DNA from: a bacterium
GTDB taxonomy: Bacteria; Patescibacteriota; Minisyncoccia; UBA6257; GWB1-50-10
Length of the DNA stretch: 41,589 bases
Direction: 5' to 3'
NCBI GenBank assembly: GCA_021814545.1
Contig: JAKAID010000001.1
Span: 1-41,589 of the forward strand
In this document: positions 1,697-38,397 of the stretch, piece by piece
How positions within the stretch are numbered: the stretch's first letter is position 1
Layout: the number at the start of each line of letters is the position of its first letter
The notes under the pieces: generated by a model
Told to the model about the DNA's origin: nothing
Seen by the model: only the letters and a program-made list of their open reading frames with translations
The model's database searches: none
Made by a program: the position numbers and the translations under genes

Positions 1697-1724
1697 CCGC
1701 CTCTCCATCGAGAGGCGGTGTTTG
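1697..1724 (+). terminator. Terminator-like hairpin after pilin gene
   Basis: CCGCCTCTC-CATC-GAGAGGCGG followed by TGTTTGTT. Confidence 0.6.
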
Positions 1725-1748
1725 TTATACTGGAACTATACTTCGCTC

Positions 1749-3467
1749 ATGATTTCTTTTCCTCCGGAAAAACTGAAAGAGATACTGCTCCGCGCGGGGA
1801 TAGTGCCCGCTGATACCTTCAATGCGTTTCTCGCCGAGGCCCAGCGCAAGCAGCAGAATTTGAGCGATGTGCTTATCGCGCAGGGTGTCGTGAATAAAGA
1901 GTACCTCATGTCGCTCTTTGCACAGTATTTGGGCGTAGAGCGCGTGAATCTTGGCGTGACAAGGATTGATGAGGCGCTCCTGAAGCTCGTGCCCGAAGAT
2001 GTGGCGCGCCGCAAGAAGGTGGTGGTGTTCGGCAAAGAAGCCGATGGGCGGTTTAAGGTGGCGATGGATGACCCAAGCGACCTTGAGACCATAGATTTTT
2101 TGATGCTGAAGCTCGGCGGCTCCGTGAAGCCCTACCTTGCGACCGAGGATGACTTGAACCGCGGGTACATGCTCTACGGCAAGCAGCTCACGCAAGACTT
2201 TAAGACTATCATCGAGGAGAGCGTGCGCGAGTCGCTGCGCGCCCGAGCACGGGGAGGGGGAAGTGAAACCGAGGGGGAGGACCTTCCCATTGTTGCTATC
2301 GTTGACAACCTTGTTTCGTACGCCATCTCGTCCCGCGCATCCGATGTACATTTTGAAGTACTCGACGACGGCATTCTGGTGCGGTACCGCATCGACGGTA
2401 TTTTGCACGAGATAATCAGGATGCCTAAGGAAATCCACCCCGCGATAGTCGCGCGCGTGAAGATACTCTCGAGTCTTCGCGTTGACGAGCACACCCACCC
2501 GCAAGATGGCCGCTTCCGCTACAAGGTGGGCGGCGGAGTGGTCGACGTACGCGTTTCCGTCATCCCTACGTTTTATGGCGAGAAGATAGTGATGCGCCTT
2601 TTGACCGGCGCACAAAAACCGCTTTCGCTCGCCGACCTCGGATTTTACGAGGGAGACATTAAGGTGGTGGAGGCGGCGGTCAAAAAGACCTACGGTATGG
2701 TGCTCGCAACGGGTCCTACCGGTTCTGGTAAAACGACGACGCTCTATTCGCTACTCAATATGTTGAATAGGCCCGATGTGAATATCGTGACCATCGAGGA
2801 TCCTATCGAATACGACATGCGGTATGTGAACCAAATGCAGGTGAATGTTGCTGCGGGCATTACGTTCGCCGCAGGGTTGCGCTCCATTCTTCGCCAAGAT
2901 CCGAATATTGTTATGGTCGGTGAAATCCGCGATGAGGAGACCGCGAACATCGCGGTGCAGGCGGCGCTCACCGGCCATCTCGTGCTTTCAAGCTTGCACA
3001 CGAACGATGCGCCGACCGCGGTGCCGCGTTTTATCGATATGGGAGTGCCTCCGTTTCTCGTGTCCGCGGTATTGAACACCATTATTGCGCAGCGTCTGGT
3101 GCGCCGCATCCACATCGACTGCATTGAGTCCTACAAACCGGACCCTGCATATTTTTCCGCAATCCAGCGCGAACTTGAAGTGAGTGGCGCCGCCGCGGGC
3201 GCGGTGAAAATCCCCAAGACTTTCTATCGCGGGAAGGGGTGCAACGTGTGCGGTGGTACCGGCTTCTTGGGTCGTCTCGGCATCTATGAGGTGTTGAATG
3301 TTACCGAGGCAGTGCGCAAACTCATCATCAGCGAGAATTTCAGCCTCGATAACCTGCGCCGCATCGCGCGTGAGGAAGGGATGAGTACCATGTTCGAGGA
3401 CGGTCTTCGCAAGGTGGAGCGCGGCGTGACCACTATCGAGGAATTGCTGCGCGTGGTGCGCGAGTAG
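1749..3467 (+). CDS. pilB: Type IV pilus/type II secretion assembly ATPase (PilB/GspE family)
   Basis: Walker A GPTGSGKTTTLYSLL, EDPIEY, LRQDPNIVMVGEIRD, LVLSSLHTNDA, CxxC (CNVCGGTGF). Confidence 0.95.
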   Translation: MISFPPEKLKEILLRAGIVPADTFNAFLAEAQRKQQNLSDVLIAQGVVNKEYLMSLFAQYLGVERVNLGVTRIDEALLKLVPEDVARRKKVVVFGKEADGRFKVAMDDPSDLETIDFLMLKLGGSVKPYLATEDDLNRGYMLYGKQLTQDFKTIIEESVRESLRARARGGGSETEGEDLPIVAIVDNLVSYAISSRASDVHFEVLDDGILVRYRIDGILHEIIRMPKEIHPAIVARVKILSSLRVDEHTHPQDGRFRYKVGGGVVDVRVSVIPTFYGEKIVMRLLTGAQKPLSLADLGFYEGDIKVVEAAVKKTYGMVLATGPTGSGKTTTLYSLLNMLNRPDVNIVTIEDPIEYDMRYVNQMQVNVAAGITFAAGLRSILRQDPNIVMVGEIRDEETANIAVQAALTGHLVLSSLHTNDAPTAVPRFIDMGVPPFLVSAVLNTIIAQRLVRRIHIDCIESYKPDPAYFSAIQRELEVSGAAAGAVKIPKTFYRGKGCNVCGGTGFLGRLGIYEVLNVTEAVRKLIISENFSLDNLRRIAREEGMSTMFEDGLRKVERGVTTIEELLRVVRE

Positions 3468-3505
3468 GGAGGAAGGAAGAAATACGGTACAATTAATTCA
3501 CACGC

Positions 3506-4708
3506 ATGAAATTTCGTTTTATCGCATCGCAGGCAGATGGCCGCATCGTTGAGGGGGATATCGAGGCGCGGAGCGTTCAGGATGTGCTCTCCTACCTCGC
3601 GAAGAACGGGTTAAAACCCGTGAGCGTAAAGCCCATCGAAGAAAAGGGGAAGGCATCGCTTTTCGCGCCGAGTATTAGCATTACCGACCAGATATTCCTC
3701 ACGAAGTATCTCGCGCTCATGCTCCGCATCGGCACGGGGCTCCTTGAGGCGGTCAATATCCTTATTGCTGATTTTGATAAGCAGGCCATTCGCGACATTC
3801 TTTTTGAGGTGCGTGCCGCGCTTGAGGCGGGCCAGCCGTTCTACACGACGTTCGCGAAATATCCGAAGATATTCAGCAACGTGTACATCAATCTCGTGAA
3901 GGCGGGCGAGGCGTCCGGTAATTTGGAGAAAATTTTCGCTGATCTTACTGAAACTCTTACGAAACAAAAAGACCTCCGTGACCAATTGCGCGGGGCGCTT
4001 GTGTACCCCGTCCTTCTCCTCATCGGCTCCGTTCTTATCCTCGTGTTCCTCATTATGTTCGCCTTGCCGAAGATAGCGAACGTGTTCATGGAGGGCGGCT
4101 TCAACCCGCCCGCGTTCACGAAGGTGGTGTTCGCGGTCGGCTTTTTCTTCAACTCGTACGGCCTCTACATTCTTGGATTCTTCGCCGTGCTTGCGTTCAT
4201 CGCGCTCTGGCTCAATTCCACTTCGGCCACATTCCATAAGTTCCTTTCGAACATGGTTTCGGGGTTGCCGCTCGTGAAAACCGTGCTGAAGAAGATGGCG
4301 CTCCAGCGCTTTGCCTCAACGCTCGCCTCGCTCATCAAGGCGGGCATGCCGCTTACCGAAGCGCTTGAGATAACCGCGGGCGCGGTGGCGAACGAGGAGG
4401 CGCGTGCGGCCTTAGTGCGTATCTCGCGCGAGGGCCTTGCGAAGGGTCTCACGATAGGCGAAGCGTTCCGCAGGGAACCATTCTTTCCGCAGACGGTGAC
4501 GAACCTTGTCGCCATCTCGGAGCGAGCGGGGCACCTTGATGAGGTGCTTACGACGCTTAGCGAATTTTATACGAAAGAAATCGACTCGTCCGTCAAAGAG
4601 CTCGTCTCATTCCTTGAGCCGGCGCTCCTCCTGTTTATCGGCGTGGTCATCGGCGTCATCGCGCTCGCTATTATCGTCCCTATCTATCAGCTCACCACGC
4701 AGTTCTAA
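3506..4708 (+). CDS. pilC: Type IV pilus inner-membrane platform protein (PilC/GspF family)
   Basis: Two T2SSF domains; GTGLLEAVNIL, VKAGEASGNLE, LIKAGMPLTEALEIT; membrane segments. Confidence 0.94.
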   Translation: MKFRFIASQADGRIVEGDIEARSVQDVLSYLAKNGLKPVSVKPIEEKGKASLFAPSISITDQIFLTKYLALMLRIGTGLLEAVNILIADFDKQAIRDILFEVRAALEAGQPFYTTFAKYPKIFSNVYINLVKAGEASGNLEKIFADLTETLTKQKDLRDQLRGALVYPVLLLIGSVLILVFLIMFALPKIANVFMEGGFNPPAFTKVVFAVGFFFNSYGLYILGFFAVLAFIALWLNSTSATFHKFLSNMVSGLPLVKTVLKKMALQRFASTLASLIKAGMPLTEALEITAGAVANEEARAALVRISREGLAKGLTIGEAFRREPFFPQTVTNLVAISERAGHLDEVLTTLSEFYTKEIDSSVKELVSFLEPALLLFIGVVIGVIALAIIVPIYQLTTQF

Positions 4709-4712
4709 CGGG

Positions 4713-5834
4713 ATGAGGCGCATGTCCAACAATCGTTCCGGATTCACCCTTATCGAAATGCTCGTGGTCGTTGCGATGACCGCCATTTTCGCGACGATGG
4801 GTTTTGTGTTCCTGGGCTCGTATCGCGGCAGCCAGAACCTTAAGAAGACGCTTGATGAAGTTTCCTCTCTCGTTCAAGCGACGCAGAAGCGCTCGATTAC
4901 GCAGGATAACGGAAGCCAGTGGAACGTGCGCTTTTCAAATACCACAAGCTCGGGCAGTCAGTATCTCAGCTTTTCAGGCGCGAGTTTTAGCACTTCAAGC
5001 GTTGATCGCACCTATGGTCTTGCGCGCGGCATCATTTTCTCGAACCCGTTTTCGGGCTCAACATACGATGCGCTATTTACTCCCATTACGGGGGCGCTTC
5101 CTGAAAAAAAGATTATTTCGATGGTTGATGGAAGGGGCGACGGTCTCGTAGGCGATCTCATTTTGACCACGACGGGGCGCACGACCAAACGCAACGAGAA
5201 TGGGTTGGTGGGATATTGGCACCTTGATGAGGGAACGAGCACCGTTATCCATGATGCATCGGGAAGTGGCAACGATGGAAATCTTGCGATTGGCGCGGGC
5301 GGCACCCAAACCGTTCCTGCACAGGCATGGGCTAACGGAATTTCAGGCAGGGCGGGAGGCGCGCTCAGTTTTGATGGAACCGACGATTACATGCTGGGAC
5401 CAAACTCGAGTTCGGTGCAGCTCGCCAAAGGAACGGTAACCGCATGGATAAAAACTTCGAATGCGGGAGTGTCATACCGTGGCATTGTCGTGAAGCAGAA
5501 CGCGTACGGAATGTTCCTGAAGGATAATATTTTCATCATTTACGATTGGGGTGGAGGCGACAGAACCACCGGTATCAATCTCGGCGACGGTGCGTGGCAT
5601 CAGGTCGGCATGGTGTTCAACGTGGGCGTCACAGGCGGTACCACGCTTTACATCGACGGCGCGGCCGTTGCCACGACCACCATCACTTCCGCCTCGCAGA
5701 ACGTTGCCGTCGTGCTCGCTTCGGGGACGGCAGGCGTGTCGCAGAGCTTTTCCGGTCTTATTGACGAGGTTCGTATCTATAATCGCATGCTTTCCGCGGG
5801 CGAGATAGCGAGCGAATACAATGACCTTAAATAG
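4713..5834 (+). CDS. Pseudopilin fused to a LamG-like (concanavalin A-like) domain
   Basis: RSG|FTLIEMLVVVAMTAIFATMGF, then GLVGYWHLDEGTST...GALSFDGTDDY...GLIDEVRIYNRMLSAGEI. Start 4713 or 4722. Confidence 0.85.
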   Translation: MRRMSNNRSGFTLIEMLVVVAMTAIFATMGFVFLGSYRGSQNLKKTLDEVSSLVQATQKRSITQDNGSQWNVRFSNTTSSGSQYLSFSGASFSTSSVDRTYGLARGIIFSNPFSGSTYDALFTPITGALPEKKIISMVDGRGDGLVGDLILTTTGRTTKRNENGLVGYWHLDEGTSTVIHDASGSGNDGNLAIGAGGTQTVPAQAWANGISGRAGGALSFDGTDDYMLGPNSSSVQLAKGTVTAWIKTSNAGVSYRGIVVKQNAYGMFLKDNIFIIYDWGGGDRTTGINLGDGAWHQVGMVFNVGVTGGTTLYIDGAAVATTTITSASQNVAVVLASGTAGVSQSFSGLIDEVRIYNRMLSAGEIASEYNDLK

Positions 5835-5835
5835 G

Positions 5836-5917
5836 AATGTCCAATATCAAATGACTAATGACAAAAAGGGGAGGGGGCGCTTTCTTATTGGAAATTTGTC
5901 ATTTGAAATTTGTCATT
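5836..5917. repeat. Imperfect inverted repeat overlapping a pseudopilin N-terminus
   Basis: Left arm aatgtccaatatcaaatgactaatgac is close to the reverse complement of right arm aaatttgtcatttgaaatttgtcatt (5892-5917), which is itself a tandem of aaatttgtcatt. Confidence 0.7.
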
Positions 5918-7212
5918 CGCGCAGCGGTCAGTCTCTTATCGAGGTGGTAATAGGCCTTGCGATAGGCTCTATTCTTATCGGTGCTGCTGCATTCGCGATT
6001 TCCACGATGCTTCAGACGAATCTTGCGGCGCAGAAGGGCCAGGCAGCCGCAGCCCTTGCGCAGGAACTTCTCAATAAGGCAAAAGCATACGGTTCTGCGA
6101 ACTGGCAGAACCTGTACGGACTCTCAAAATCCTCGAGTACGCAGTATTTTTTGAATGCCTCAGGGACCGCCTACTTCGTGGTGCAGGGGAAAGAGGGAGT
6201 ACTTGATAATGATGTAACGAGTGGTATTTTCGGACAATGGAAGTTTGATGAGGATGCGGCAAGCACGAGTACTATCACCTACGACGCATCGGGAAACGGG
6301 AACTATGGCACACTTATCAGTAATCCCGTGCGCGCGACATCGACATGCAAATTGAGCAATTGCTTATCGTTTGATGGTACTAATTATGTTCAGATAGGGG
6401 GGCAGACCACGCTTGGTACCACGAATCAGCCTTACAGTATTTCTCTATGGTTTAAGGCGAATAGCGTTGCTGGTGGCGTTTTGTTGCATATGGCGGGCGC
6501 GGCAAACGGTCTTGGATGGTGTCTTCCTACCATGGGGTTCACTTCGACGGGCCAACTTTCGGTTCAAAATTGGAATAATGGTTCAGTGAGCGCTACCGCG
6601 GTTAATGTGACACCCACGGGACAGTGGATTAATGCGGTCGAGACATGGGATGCAACGGGTGGTTTGCAGCTTTATGCGAATGGCGCGCTTGCGGCAGCAA
6701 CCCCCATGGCCGGGTATACAGCCTCGGGCGCGTCTAATTACATTTGGCCCGCGTGGGGCGCGACGGCGCTCTGGTGCAGCACCGGACAGATAACGAAAGT
6801 AAATTTCAACGGCTCGATAGATGATGTGCGCGTCTATAATCGTGCGCTTTCTGCGGATGAGGTGCGGCAGCTCTGGAACAGTAATGTATTCACCCGCTAT
6901 TTTTACGTAGAAAATGTGTGCCGCACGAGCGATGCGTCGAGTTCTATTTCCGGTGTCGCGCCCTGCGGCGGCGGGTCGGGCGATGACCCTTCGACCCAAA
7001 AGGTGACATCAGTCGTGCAGTGGGTAACGGGGGCGGGGGCCGGCATCACGACGCTCTCCGACTATCTTACGCGCTGGAAGAACGTGATATTTTTACAGAA
7101 CGATTGGTCGGGCGGTCCGGGAGCGTCCGGCCCCGTGACAACGCCGGGGAATACCTTCGCTTCGTCCTCGGACGTGAATTATAGCAAGGGCATTCGTATC
7201 CAAGGGCTCTAA
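5851..7212 (+). CDS. Second pseudopilin fused to a LamG-like domain
   Basis: RSG|QSLIEVVIGLAIGSILIGAAAFAIS plus IFGQWKFDEDAASTST...SFDGTNYVQIGG...GSIDDVRVYNRALSADEVRQLWN. Start 5821 or 5851. Confidence 0.82.
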   Translation: MTNDKKGRGRFLIGNLSFEICHSRSGQSLIEVVIGLAIGSILIGAAAFAISTMLQTNLAAQKGQAAAALAQELLNKAKAYGSANWQNLYGLSKSSSTQYFLNASGTAYFVVQGKEGVLDNDVTSGIFGQWKFDEDAASTSTITYDASGNGNYGTLISNPVRATSTCKLSNCLSFDGTNYVQIGGQTTLGTTNQPYSISLWFKANSVAGGVLLHMAGAANGLGWCLPTMGFTSTGQLSVQNWNNGSVSATAVNVTPTGQWINAVETWDATGGLQLYANGALAAATPMAGYTASGASNYIWPAWGATALWCSTGQITKVNFNGSIDDVRVYNRALSADEVRQLWNSNVFTRYFYVENVCRTSDASSSISGVAPCGGGSGDDPSTQKVTSVVQWVTGAGAGITTLSDYLTRWKNVIFLQNDWSGGPGASGPVTTPGNTFASSSDVNYSKGIRIQGL

Positions 7213-7659: not shown

Positions 7660-10011
7660 ATGACCCTGCTCATTATTTTCATCTCGATATTCTTTGCAGT
7701 GCTCCTCGGCATTATTTCTTTTTTTGCCGCACGCGCGAATCTTCGTAAGCAACTCGCCGAGAGCCTGGATACTCGGCTGTTCCTTGTGCGTTTGCCGCTC
7801 GGTTCAAAGGAGGGGCGCGATCTCAAAAAAGAGATAGGAGCATCCGAGCAGCTTATGAGCGCGCTCGCGTCTTTCGGTAAGCCATTCTCGTTCGAGATAG
7901 CGGTACCCAATGTCGGCGAGGAGATTCATTTTTTCGTGTCGGTTCCCGGGAAGGCTGCGGGTGCCGTCGTGCGCCAGATACAGGCGCTTTGGAAAGATGC
8001 GAGCGTGAGCGAGGCGGAGGAATATAACATTTTCAATTATACCGGGACGACGGTGGGCGCGCTGTTGCGGCTTAAGGACCACTACTCGATTCCCGTGCGG
8101 ACGTACCAAAGCTTTGAGTCGGATACGCTCCTCCCCGTACTCGGAGGACTTACTCAGATAAATGCGGTGGGCGAGGGCTGCGCCATCCAATATGTGATAC
8201 GGTCGGCGGAACAAGAGAAGCGTTCCATACGGACCGCTATTTCCAATTTAAAAAAAGGAAAGAGCCTCAAGGAGGTTTTCCCCGGGAGTGACTCGACGTG
8301 GTCAGCGATAGAGAGGGCCATCGCACCGGGTGCGCCCAAGAAGGAGGGCGAGAAAATAATAGATGAGGAAGCGGTGCGGGCGCTCGAGGCGAAACTCGCG
8401 AAACCGCTTTTCCGGGTTAATGTGCGCGTTGTGGCGTCGGCGCCGAGCCAGTTCCAGGCAGAGGCTATCGCGGACGGTATTACGGCAGGCTTTTCGCAAT
8501 TCGCGGCGCCTGAGCGCAATGAGTTCCGCGTGGTGAAGCCGCGGCGACTTGCAGAGTTCGTACACGATTTTTCATACCGAGAGTTCCGTGAAGAAGACGC
8601 GATGGTGCTGAACGCTGAGGAGCTTGCGAGCGTCTTCCACTTCCCTACGCCTTTCACTGAGGTGCCGAAACTCAAATACCTTAAATCGAAAGAATCGCCG
8701 GCGCCCGTAGGCATGCCGAGCGCGGGGGTCCTTCTCGGATACAATCGCTACCGCAACGCGGAAACGCCGGTCCGGCTCTCGCGCGATGACCGTCGCCGCC
8801 ATGTGTACGTCATCGGGCAGACCGGCACGGGGAAATCGGTGTTCATCAACAATCTTGCGGGACAGGACGTTATCGGCAAAGAGGGCGTGTGCGTCATTGA
8901 CCCGAACGGCGACCTCTTCGAGGATATTGCGAAGCGTATTCCGCGTGAGCGCATACATGACGTGGTCATCTTTGACCCGAGCGACATCACGCAGCCTCTT
9001 GGGCTCAATATGCTCGAATATGACCCGCGCTATCCCGAGCAGAAAACACTCATCGTAAATGAGCTCCTTCAGATATTCGATACGCTCTACGATATGAAGG
9101 CGGCGGGCGGGCCCATGTTCGAGCAGTACGCGAGGAATGCGCTCCTCCTCCTTATGGACGACCCGTCGAACGGGTTTACCATTCTTGAAATTCCAAGGGT
9201 GCTCACCGATGCGTCATTCCGCAGGAAGTTGCTTGAGAAGTGCACCAACCTTCTCACCAAAGAGTTCTGGGAAAAGGAGGCGGAAAAGGCGGGGGGCGAG
9301 GCGGCGCTCGCAAACATTGCGCCCTACATCACTTCAAAGTTCAACACCTTCATCGCGAATGACTACACGCGCCCCATTCTCGCGCAGTCAAAGAATTCCA
9401 TCGATTTTCGGCAAATACTCGACGAAGGGAAAATTCTTCTCGTTAACCTGTCGAAGGGGCGCATTGGCGAGCTGAACGCCGGTTTGCTCGGTATGATAAT
9501 CGTAGGGAGACTCACCATCGCCGCGTTCTCGCGTGCAGATATTCCTGTGGAGAAGCGCCGCGATTTCTACCTCTATATCGATGAGTTCCAGAATTTTTCC
9601 ACTCCGTCCATCTCGACCATTCTTGCCGAGGCGCGCAAGTACCGCCTGTGCCTTACCGTCGCGCACCAGTTCATTGCTCAGCTCAAAGAGCCGATTAAGA
9701 ATGCGGTGTTCGGTAACGTGGGCAACATGGTCGCATTCCGCGTAGGGCCGGATGATGCAAAATTCCTTGTTTCGCAATTCGCGCCCGTGTTCAACGAGAA
9801 TGACATTATGAACATCGACAACTTGAACGCGCACGCAAAGATTCTTATCAATAATCAGGTTTCGCCGCCGTTCAACCTGTTCGTGCCGTTCCCCGAAAAA
9901 GGCGATGAGGCGATGCTCGAGGCGGTTCGCACAACCTCGCGCACGAAGTATGGGCGGCCGCTTGCGGAAGTCGAAGCGGAGATATATGCGCGCGTGAAAC
10001 GCATCGGGTGA
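7660..10011 (+). CDS. VirB4/HerA-like (DUF87-type) conjugation/T4SS-type ATPase
   Basis: Walker A YVIGQTGTGKSVFINNL, VIDPNGDLFEDI, Walker B FYLYIDEFQNF, AEARKYRLCLTVAHQF; N-terminal membrane helix. Confidence 0.88.
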   Translation: MTLLIIFISIFFAVLLGIISFFAARANLRKQLAESLDTRLFLVRLPLGSKEGRDLKKEIGASEQLMSALASFGKPFSFEIAVPNVGEEIHFFVSVPGKAAGAVVRQIQALWKDASVSEAEEYNIFNYTGTTVGALLRLKDHYSIPVRTYQSFESDTLLPVLGGLTQINAVGEGCAIQYVIRSAEQEKRSIRTAISNLKKGKSLKEVFPGSDSTWSAIERAIAPGAPKKEGEKIIDEEAVRALEAKLAKPLFRVNVRVVASAPSQFQAEAIADGITAGFSQFAAPERNEFRVVKPRRLAEFVHDFSYREFREEDAMVLNAEELASVFHFPTPFTEVPKLKYLKSKESPAPVGMPSAGVLLGYNRYRNAETPVRLSRDDRRRHVYVIGQTGTGKSVFINNLAGQDVIGKEGVCVIDPNGDLFEDIAKRIPRERIHDVVIFDPSDITQPLGLNMLEYDPRYPEQKTLIVNELLQIFDTLYDMKAAGGPMFEQYARNALLLLMDDPSNGFTILEIPRVLTDASFRRKLLEKCTNLLTKEFWEKEAEKAGGEAALANIAPYITSKFNTFIANDYTRPILAQSKNSIDFRQILDEGKILLVNLSKGRIGELNAGLLGMIIVGRLTIAAFSRADIPVEKRRDFYLYIDEFQNFSTPSISTILAEARKYRLCLTVAHQFIAQLKEPIKNAVFGNVGNMVAFRVGPDDAKFLVSQFAPVFNENDIMNIDNLNAHAKILINNQVSPPFNLFVPFPEKGDEAMLEAVRTTSRTKYGRPLAEVEAEIYARVKRIG

Positions 10012-23081: not shown

Positions 23082-23354
23082 GTGGTTAATTGGGACGAAT
23101 TGCGCACATTCTTGGTAGAGCAAGGCATCACGAACGCTCGCATCGAGTTTTTCGGCGATTTTTTGCGCACCCTCTCGTTCGAAGAGCGGCAGATGATGAT
23201 GCGCATCATGGCAACCTATCCCGAAAAACTTCCATTCATGGCAGAAATTTTGGAAAAGAAACGTTCACTTGCGAAGCGGTTCGATCCGTCCCTCGCAAAG
23301 GAGGTCGCCGCGCGTGAGTTTCAGGAGCTCAAGAGGGCAGCAGAGGCGGATTAA
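23082..23354 (+). CDS. Hypothetical protein, 90 aa
   Basis: ORF with GTG start between PAP2 and the transglutaminase-like gene. Confidence 0.6.
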   Translation: MVNWDELRTFLVEQGITNARIEFFGDFLRTLSFEERQMMMRIMATYPEKLPFMAEILEKKRSLAKRFDPSLAKEVAAREFQELKRAAEAD

Positions 23355-23360
23355 TGCACT

Positions 23361-25262
23361 ATGGAATTTTTTAAGAAAAATCATGAAGAGGCTCCGTCGG
23401 AACCGCATGAGGCGATACGCGCTCCCGCGCAATTTGATGCGCTTGCGCATGAGGAGGAGGGGGTGATACGCGCAATGGCGCGCAAGGCTGGAAAGAGGCT
23501 TGCGCCGGTCGCCGCAGCACTTTCGCTTTTTGTTGGCGCATCGACTGCGTATGGCGCCGAAACGGTGGCGGCGCAAGCGGAAGAAGCGCCGACCGCAGAA
23601 ACACCCGCGCTCGTTGAGGAAGGCGTGAAGCCAAAGGAGGAGTCAAAATGGTTCGAGCGCATCTCGGTCGCGGTGAGCGCCCCCCTCGAACATCTGCCGA
23701 AATTACCAGGCAGTGATAGAGGACGATACGATCTTACCAGTGCGGAGACCCTTGCGGCAGAGACCGGATTTAAGAACGCTATTTACGCTTCGGCGAGCGC
23801 GAGCGAATATTTTACGAATCTTTCAAAAATCGATTACCTTAGCCCGCAGCAAAAGACGGATGTGTTAAAACGCATCGGGGATGTGCTTTACGAAACCTAC
23901 AACGAAGACATGGCTACGAAGAATGAGGCGGTTGCCGTTTCTGATGATGTTATGTTCAAATCGATAAAGACTCTTGTAGAAACGGGGAAGCGCATACCCT
24001 CCGGCATTTGCGGGAACATATCCGTATTCGTGGCGAAAGCGGCGCGCAGTATGGGGTTCGAGTCTTGGGTTCAGGATGTTTCCGCGAGCGGCGGAGGTGG
24101 GCACGTCATTGCCGGTCTTGTAGTTGATGGCGATAGCGGCAAAGAAATAGATTTTGTGAATGGGGGGAATCTCGTGCGGGCGGGGACGCTCAATTATCGG
24201 GATGCACTCGGCGTTTTTGAGCGAGATGAGGGGCGCGTGAATATGTTCGACTCGTTCGTCGCCAACGAGGAAAGGGTTCTCACCAAGGTGGAAAGCAAAG
24301 CGCAGTCGGTTGCTGAATCGTTCGTGGGTATTATGCCCACCCAGCGTGCCGCCGAAGAACTTTTGCGCGCCGGCGCCGTCGTAAAGAATTTCAATGGCCT
24401 TGAGGTCGGTCTTAGTCCTGAGGTGCACACCTTGAAACTCACTAAGGACCATATTGCGCTTCAATTCGCTAATTTTGAGAATGTCCGAAACGACCCCTAT
24501 CAATCATTGCGGAGCCTCAATTCGTTCAGCGGAACGCTCAATTTTCAGGGCGAGCAGTACAAGGTTGACCTTGATACCACGTTCCTCCATTTCTCGCTCG
24601 ACGGGCTTCACAACAACCGCGTCGATTTTTCTACCCTCGTGTCGCGGCTTTTTGCGGAGTATGTCGACAGCCGCACCCTCACCAAGGGAGCGTGGGGAGA
24701 ATTAAAGGCGGGTCTTGGCGCGACATTCCAAGGGGCGATGAATGTGCCGCTTGGCGAGCAAAACACATTTCTTGGTCTTAGATATCTCGGCGAGGCCGCG
24801 CTCGGCGCACAGCTTGTGTATCTTGACCCGCATCGCGTCGGTCAGTTCCATTTTGGCGCATCTGACCTTGCGCGCAGGCAAGACAGCGATGCCCAACGGC
24901 AAAAATTAACGATCGCGCGGCCCTCCACACGATTCAATGTCGGTGGAGACGTGAAGGTGGCGGACGGTCTTGTGCTCGGGTTTGATGCCACAAAGCAAAG
25001 AACGGATTGGGGGGGAGCGTTTGAGGCGGAGGTGCGTGCGAAGACAAAGTTTGGCGCGGCGGAATTCTCGTACCAAAAGGAGCATTCCGCGATGGAACGA
25101 TTCATCCCTTCGACCGAAACGCTCGGCGGGCAGCTTTCGTATACCGGTGACCCAAGGTTCGAGGTGCGCGTACTCGGCTTCAAAAAGACCGAGCAGTATA
25201 AAGACGCGACACCCCATACGGAGTATGAGGCGAAGGTGGTGGCGGTTCTGAGGTTCTATTAA
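23361..25262 (+). CDS. Secreted transglutaminase-like protein with beta-barrel-like C-terminal region
   Basis: Hydrophobic signal with ASTAYGA; Cys-His-Asp order in SGICGNISVFVAKAARSMGFESW / GGGHVIAGL / KEIDFVNGG; amphipathic beta strands to C-terminal ...VVAVLRFY. Confidence 0.75.
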   Translation: MEFFKKNHEEAPSEPHEAIRAPAQFDALAHEEEGVIRAMARKAGKRLAPVAAALSLFVGASTAYGAETVAAQAEEAPTAETPALVEEGVKPKEESKWFERISVAVSAPLEHLPKLPGSDRGRYDLTSAETLAAETGFKNAIYASASASEYFTNLSKIDYLSPQQKTDVLKRIGDVLYETYNEDMATKNEAVAVSDDVMFKSIKTLVETGKRIPSGICGNISVFVAKAARSMGFESWVQDVSASGGGGHVIAGLVVDGDSGKEIDFVNGGNLVRAGTLNYRDALGVFERDEGRVNMFDSFVANEERVLTKVESKAQSVAESFVGIMPTQRAAEELLRAGAVVKNFNGLEVGLSPEVHTLKLTKDHIALQFANFENVRNDPYQSLRSLNSFSGTLNFQGEQYKVDLDTTFLHFSLDGLHNNRVDFSTLVSRLFAEYVDSRTLTKGAWGELKAGLGATFQGAMNVPLGEQNTFLGLRYLGEAALGAQLVYLDPHRVGQFHFGASDLARRQDSDAQRQKLTIARPSTRFNVGGDVKVADGLVLGFDATKQRTDWGGAFEAEVRAKTKFGAAEFSYQKEHSAMERFIPSTETLGGQLSYTGDPRFEVRVLGFKKTEQYKDATPHTEYEAKVVAVLRFY

Positions 25263-25519
25263 AAGAACGAGATAAATACTTTGCGGAGGGCGGCTATTTC
25301 GTCCGAGTTCATTTCGTTCACGAGGTGCACTTCGAGTTCTTTGAATGCGTGCTCTATCTCGTGCGCGGCCACTTTTCCTTTCACTTTTCCGCGCATCATC
25401 TTTGTTATCACTGCTTTCTCGTGTTCGGAGAGTTTTTCCATTTTCACGAGGAACTCTCGCAACATTTTTGCGGTTTCTTTTGCGGGTTGCTTTTTGAAAA
25501 ATGATATCGGGTCGAACAT
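25259..25519 (-). CDS. Hypothetical protein, 86 aa
   Basis: MFDPISFFKKQPAKETAKMLREFLVKMEKLSEHEK...; ATG 14 nt after tRNA-Leu CCA. Confidence 0.65.
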   Translation of the reverse strand: MFDPISFFKKQPAKETAKMLREFLVKMEKLSEHEKAVITKMMRGKVKGKVAAHEIEHAFKELEVHLVNEMNSDEIAALRKVFISFF

Positions 25520-25533
25520 AACAGTTGCGGTTT

Positions 25534-25620
25534 TGGTGCCTAAGGTGGGACTCGAACCCACAAGACCGTAAGGTCATAGCATTTTGAGTGCTACGCGTAT
25601 GCCAGTTCCGCCACTTAGGC
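25534..25620 (-). tRNA. tRNA-Leu(CAA), CCA encoded
   Basis: Acceptor GCCTAAG/CTTAGGC, anticodon arm TAGCA-CTCAAAA-TGCTA, long variable arm, T-arm GTGGGTTCGAGTCCCAC. Confidence 0.95.
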
Positions 25621-37719: not shown

Positions 37720-38397
37720 CTATTTTTTTTGCCTAACCTTTTTCTTTTTGTCAAAATCTCCGAGATATCTATTGACGCGCTCATTCGAGTAATTGGCAAG
37801 TTTTTGTAAAAAATCCATATGCGTTTCAACGGCGCCCTTGTGTACGGGTTTTTTAGATTTTACTTTATGTGCGATGGTTCCGCGCAGTTTAATAAATTTT
37901 TGTAGCCGTCTCCGTGCATTGGTGGGAGTAATTGTATACCAGGACCAAGATTTTGATAGATTGTCTAATCCTATGAGATCTGAAAACAAATCGTCGATAT
38001 TTTTTGGCGATGGGGTATTAAACTCACCAAGAAATTTTTTTGATTTTGTAATTTTGTATTCTTTTAAAATACTTTTCCATCCGTTGCCGGCGAGTTCCAG
38101 TACTTTTAGGTCATTCTTGTCTTCTTTTACGTGCTTCGACAAACGTTTTTGGACCTCTTTCGGGAAATGGTCGGGGCTTGAGGCTTTTGTTAGCAATGAA
38201 GAAAACGCCTTGTCCGCCAAATCTTCAATAAAGGCCTCCCAACATGCAACGAGTAAGACAACACTGCTTTTGTTTAAAACTTGAATCAAACTATCCCTGC
38301 GGCCGCGTTTTTCTCCAGTTAAAGCCTCGTGCATAAGGAGGAGCGCCTTAACCTCTCCGAGATTTTCTTGAAAATTTTGAATGGGCTTTTTGATCAT
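37720..38397 (-). CDS. HEPN-domain protein (RiboL-PSP-HEPN-like)
   Basis: VVLLVACWEAFIEDLADKAF and RGTIAH (Rx4H); AT-rich relative to neighbours. Confidence 0.7.
   Translation of the reverse strand: MIKKPIQNFQENLGEVKALLLMHEALTGEKRGRRDSLIQVLNKSSVVLLVACWEAFIEDLADKAFSSLLTKASSPDHFPKEVQKRLSKHVKEDKNDLKVLELAGNGWKSILKEYKITKSKKFLGEFNTPSPKNIDDLFSDLIGLDNLSKSWSWYTITPTNARRRLQKFIKLRGTIAHKVKSKKPVHKGAVETHMDFLQKLANYSNERVNRYLGDFDKKKKVRQKK

Follow-up and report, generated by a model that had tools for sequence, protein, structure and literature searches.

A predicted transglutaminase-like enzyme fused to an outer-membrane-barrel-like domain in Patescibacteria genomes without detectable Omp85

The window analyzed here, i.e., the whole stretch of 41,589 nucleotides, encodes a 633-residue protein (Table 1) whose reading frame agrees exactly with that proposed in an earlier sequence-only reading. 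Upstream of this gene lie rpoC, an S6-like gene, ssb, and a PAP2 gene, while parA, parB, and a RelA/SpoT gene lie downstream; its position between ssb/PAP2 and parA/parB is kept in three species of the genus. The genome comprises 561 kb on 16 contigs and is 93.8% complete, and the gene resides on a contig of 178 kb, and is therefore not a stray fragment. A small helical gene on the opposite strand (window positions 25259-25561, minus strand) is convergent with the main reading frame and overlaps its end by a few bases; it has counterparts at two related loci (L008 and L010) and a weak AAA_10 match. Elsewhere, the window carries type IV pilus-like genes (positions 1722-7212; T2SSE, T2SSF) with two N-methylation-motif proteins containing Laminin_G/ConA-like domains, a TraG/VirD4-like coupling ATPase of 783 aa (positions 7660-10011), and a RiboL-PSP-HEPN domain protein (positions 37720-38397, minus strand).

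Table 1. Features of the locus, in window coordinates.
Feature	Position	Strand	Remarks
Gene for 90-aa protein	23082..23354	+	6 bp ahead of main ORF; five other loci have a homologue in the same upstream position
Main protein ORF	23361..25262	+	633 aa; parts given in the rows below
N-terminal extension, ~40 residues	23361..23480	+	From alignment; some extension in 6/7 full-length members, not L012
Sec-type signal segment, residues 41-66	23481..23558	+	RKAGKR, hydrophobic stretch, then AYGA before E; read from sequence alone
Transglutaminase-like core, residues ~120-300	23718..24260	+	Predicted by AF2 and Foldseek
Cys217, putative nucleophile	24009..24011	+	N-end of helix 217-230; invariant in seven members
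His248	24102..24104	+	Adjoins strand 249-256; invariant in seven members
Asn267	24159..24161	+	End of strand 261-267; Asp in other 6/6 full-length members
C-terminal beta domain, residues 345-633	24393..25259	+	~12 strands by alignment; OMP-barrel-like
Last strand, EYEAKVVAVLRFY	25218..25259	+	Conserved terminal aromatic

The signal segment recognized in that reading, RKAGKRLAPVAAALSLFVGASTAYGA followed by ET, was likewise recovered, and it sits behind the N-terminal extension. An extension and a hydrophobic segment are retained by the homologues, except at locus L012, where the protein begins at the segment. A gene for a ~90-aa protein lies directly upstream, either overlapping or within ~11 bp, in six of the seven loci, across several families. 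At L012, no such gene was found among the ORFs of the locus or in its genome, i.e., the N-terminal extension and the small gene are missing together. In genome G007 (L039/L040), a relative of the small protein is encoded next to a protein of another kind, in which a long N-terminal extension likewise precedes a hydrophobic segment.

Homology searches delineated a family of seven full-length members and one fragment, all from Patescibacteria, with five of the eight outside the genus of the window. The relatives, which share 28-44% identity with the window protein, comprise L008 and L010 from the same genus, L012 (from a genome titled Brennerbacteria), L009, L011, L014, and the C-terminal fragment L016. 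Scanning contigs with the single sequence as query gave no match, and a profile query recovered five loci. The count leaves out one weak profile match (L032; E = 0.03). Two further weak profile matches (L017 and L031) sit over ordinary unrelated genes and were rejected as members. The family is sparse: it was detected in four of 244 genomes of the order and in five of 384 in the class sample, and no convincing match outside the class was found among 380 genomes of the phylum. Sequence searches of Pfam, NCBIfam, PHROGs, and PDB returned no relative of the window protein, and a scan of viral contigs for the family was empty. One genome of the same genus (G001; 98% complete) lacks this protein, and has no match to the parA of the window.

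We next consider the predicted enzyme domain. AF2 prediction of the full-length protein gave pLDDT values of ~70-91 across most of residues 121-280, and the first Foldseek matches of this core were to the transglutaminase 4xz7, Rad4, and LapG. The significance of these matches is modest (E-values of 0.04-0.2; best match E = 0.04, prob 0.99); a Cys-His-Asp/Asn triad on the predicted transglutaminase fold supports membership of the transglutaminase superfamily. As in LapG, the bacterial transglutaminase 4xz7, and the pseudomurein endoisopeptidase PeiP, which are also Foldseek matches, a Cys opens a helix and is followed by His and Asp/Asn on successive strands. The window protein differs from these enzymes in lacking a Pfam Transglut_core match (none was found in the protein or elsewhere in its own genome), in being fused to a beta-barrel-like domain, and in carrying Asn in place of Asp. 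The Cys-His-Asp core inferred earlier from the motifs GICGNIS, GGHVIAG, and EIDFVNGG thus holds for the fold, Cys217, and His248, but not for Asp264 (in EIDFVNGG), which the relatives do not conserve; in the alignment, the acid falls at position 267. Papain-type enzymes have Asn at the third catalytic position, so activity with Asn267 is conceivable; it remains only a possibility, as there are no activity data.

To describe the C-terminal domain, we scored dyad repeats, i.e., ten-residue stretches in which one face is fully hydrophobic or small and the other polar, computing coverage over the last ~290 residues and z-scores against shuffles. Coverage of the window protein was 32.5% (z = 3.2), compared to a mean of 25.1% (z = 2.06) for seven family members. 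Eight outer membrane proteins (OMPs) of E. coli K-12 had an equal level of coverage (mean 26.4%; z = 2.3), whereas 16 E. coli proteins of other kinds, three of them beta-propellers, averaged 11.1% (z = -0.07) and the transglutaminase halves of the family 5.9%. Among the 142 ORFs of the 178-kb contig, the window protein contained the best-scoring 250-residue stretch. This within-genome comparison was confined to the contig of the window and does not exclude barrel proteins elsewhere in the genome. The alternating amphipathic strands noted previously exceed chance expectation. The score is imperfectly specific, since an unrelated ORF reached 34% and alternation was also seen in two soluble proteins (MalE, z = 2.05; TolB, z = 1.5); alternating strands by themselves do not tell membrane barrels from soluble ones.

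The terminal aromatic residue, also noted previously, is kept in all eight members (two Y, two F, and four W), compared to 8.5% of the ORFs on the contig, and by this measure the C-terminal aromatic beta-signal of OMPs is present. The last two residues of the members are FY, FY, IF, FF, LW, LW, LW, and LW. In the last strand of the window protein, the hydrophobic face at positions -2, -4, -6, -8, -10, and -12 consists of F, L, A, V, A, and Y, with the terminal Y one residue past it. Six full-length members share a hydrophobic face at -2, -4, -6, and -8 with the aromatic one residue beyond phase, and at L012 the last Phe is in phase. The E. coli protein PqqU likewise has one residue after its last aromatic.

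Structure prediction gave partial support for a barrel. A check of this kind had been suggested for the C-terminus; in the full-length AF2 model, the domain of the window protein itself was unresolved (pLDDT < 50). Because of this, we modeled the C-terminus of the L012 homologue, using six sequences; L014 was left out of the structure predictions. The L012 model contains five antiparallel strands of 12-16 residues (residues ~190-270; block-mean pLDDT 71-87), and further long strands were predicted, less confidently, ahead of these. Strands are joined alternately by turns of two residues and by connections of 3-14 residues, and the chain ends on the side of the short turns. OMPs show a similar alternation of short turns with longer loops, and their C-termini are likewise found on the short-turn side. 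The homologue is thus predicted to form an up-and-down meander of amphipathic strands of OMP length, but the model is weak overall (mean pLDDT 48; pTM 0.47) and barrel closure was not shown. Foldseek searches of this model against the PDB returned outer membrane porins at all of ranks 1-15, the best being OmpT (6ehf; E = 6e-4, prob 1.00), with TM-scores to porins of 0.3-0.4, and phage-encoded porins were among the top matches in a search of viral models. The domain resembles porins and other transmembrane beta-barrels (Vibrio cholerae OmpT, OmpF/OmpC, Omp32, PorB) in its long amphipathic antiparallel strands, its alternation of short and longer connections, and its C-terminal aromatic. It differs from them in being carried by genomes without Omp85, in having an N-terminal enzyme domain, and in showing no detectable sequence similarity; the window protein has no match to a Pfam OMP family. 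On the combined basis of the calibrated strand score, the predicted meander of the homologue, and the porin matches, the OMP-like character ascribed to this C-terminus is upheld. We regard a transmembrane barrel as likely; it is not proven, since global model confidence is low.

The same data must be weighed against two other assignments of the C-terminal domain. It could merely resemble an OMP and instead be a beta domain that is soluble or wall-associated, in which case the protein would be an ordinary secreted transglutaminase-like enzyme. The weak global model, the alternation seen in TolB and MalE, and the absence of any known outer membrane in this group are all compatible with this; the length of the strands, their pattern of turns and loops, the porin matches, and the conserved terminal aromatic are not readily so, and we consider a soluble domain doubtful, although a serious contender. 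Alternatively, the protein could act like an autotransporter, its barrel carrying the preceding enzyme domain through an outer membrane. Type Va autotransporters likewise place an enzyme at the N-terminus, ahead of a C-terminal domain comparable in size to the one here (~290 residues and ~12 strands), and helices are predicted just before the domain (residues 313-322 and 327-334). However, these helices are of low confidence, no Pfam autotransporter beta-domain or other sequence match was detected, and the best structural matches were porins, with no autotransporters among them. We rank this possibility lowest and think it very improbable. Whether the domain is soluble or a barrel acting elsewhere, the two options left by the sequence-only reading, is not settled, and the evidence leans toward a membrane barrel.

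The expected site of OMP-type barrels is the outer membrane, and their assembly relies on Omp85 proteins. We detected no Omp85 (PF01103) in any of the seven carrier genomes (92-100% complete) in searches with positive controls, so the BamA homologue that had been proposed as a check was found neither in the genome of the window nor in the other carriers examined; LptD was also not found in the genome of the window. These absences agree with the premise of the earlier reading, and with published descriptions, that CPR bacteria lack a classical outer membrane (PMC6744442; PMC12102498). Elsewhere in the class, three genomes of a single family (G428, G509, G515) do encode Omp85-domain proteins (L033, L034, L035, L041), which is unusual for CPR; their open frames span ~1000-1136 aa, and PD40 beta-propeller repeats were also detected in the one that was scanned.

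One explanation consistent with a membrane barrel is that the protein has the architecture described above and that its barrel is located in an outer layer belonging to the CPR cell, into which it is inserted without a recognizable BAM machinery. The gene is chromosomal, its place is kept within the genus, and it encodes an ordinary signal segment, and the Omp85-domain proteins of the other family indicate that barrel proteins would not be out of place in this class. Set against this are the lack of Omp85 in the carriers, the lack of LptD in the genome of the window, and the literature cited above, and we judge such a location unlikely.

The explanation that we tentatively prefer, while falling short of an even chance, is that a Sec-exported enzyme of the transglutaminase superfamily, joined to an OMP-type barrel of ~12 strands, acts in the outer membrane of a diderm partner. 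Several steps of this model are supported, namely the export signal segment, the transglutaminase-like core, the OMP-like strand architecture, and the absence of Omp85 from the carriers examined. Sec export of the two-domain protein would follow from the signal segment. The enzyme, with its putative Cys-His-Asp/Asn triad, would most likely be a protease or an amidase/transferase acting on an envelope or surface protein. The C-terminal domain is predicted to form an up-and-down beta-barrel; that it enters a lipid bilayer is inferred. This bilayer would most plausibly be the outer membrane of the partner, an inference made because the producing cell has no recognizable BAM machinery, and insertion may be spontaneous or through the BAM machinery of the partner. 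The barrel may then anchor or conduct while the enzyme works at the partner envelope. The ~90-aa coupled protein may partner the N-terminal extension in the cytoplasm; that such small proteins serve extensions of this kind is a hypothesis inferred from few cases. This model has weaknesses: the barrel is modeled from a homologue only, with neither the C-terminus of the window protein resolved nor closure demonstrated; Foldseek is prone to pair long beta-meanders with OMPs; no Pfam OMP family supports the assignment; and there is no evidence for a diderm partner or for delivery into one. A more specific version, in which the barrel of a Patescibacteria epibiont folds in the outer membrane of its partner by means of the partner's own BAM and a transglutaminase-like enzyme is thereby placed in the envelope of another cell, is speculative and on present evidence improbable.

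We found no report of such enzyme-barrel proteins in the literature, although most subscription journals were outside our coverage. A conserved barrel family in CPR bacteria that lack BamA would imply either an unrecognized outer layer with another route of insertion or that these cells build into the outer membrane of another cell. Either alternative, if true, would provide a molecular handle on the interaction between CPR bacteria and their partners.
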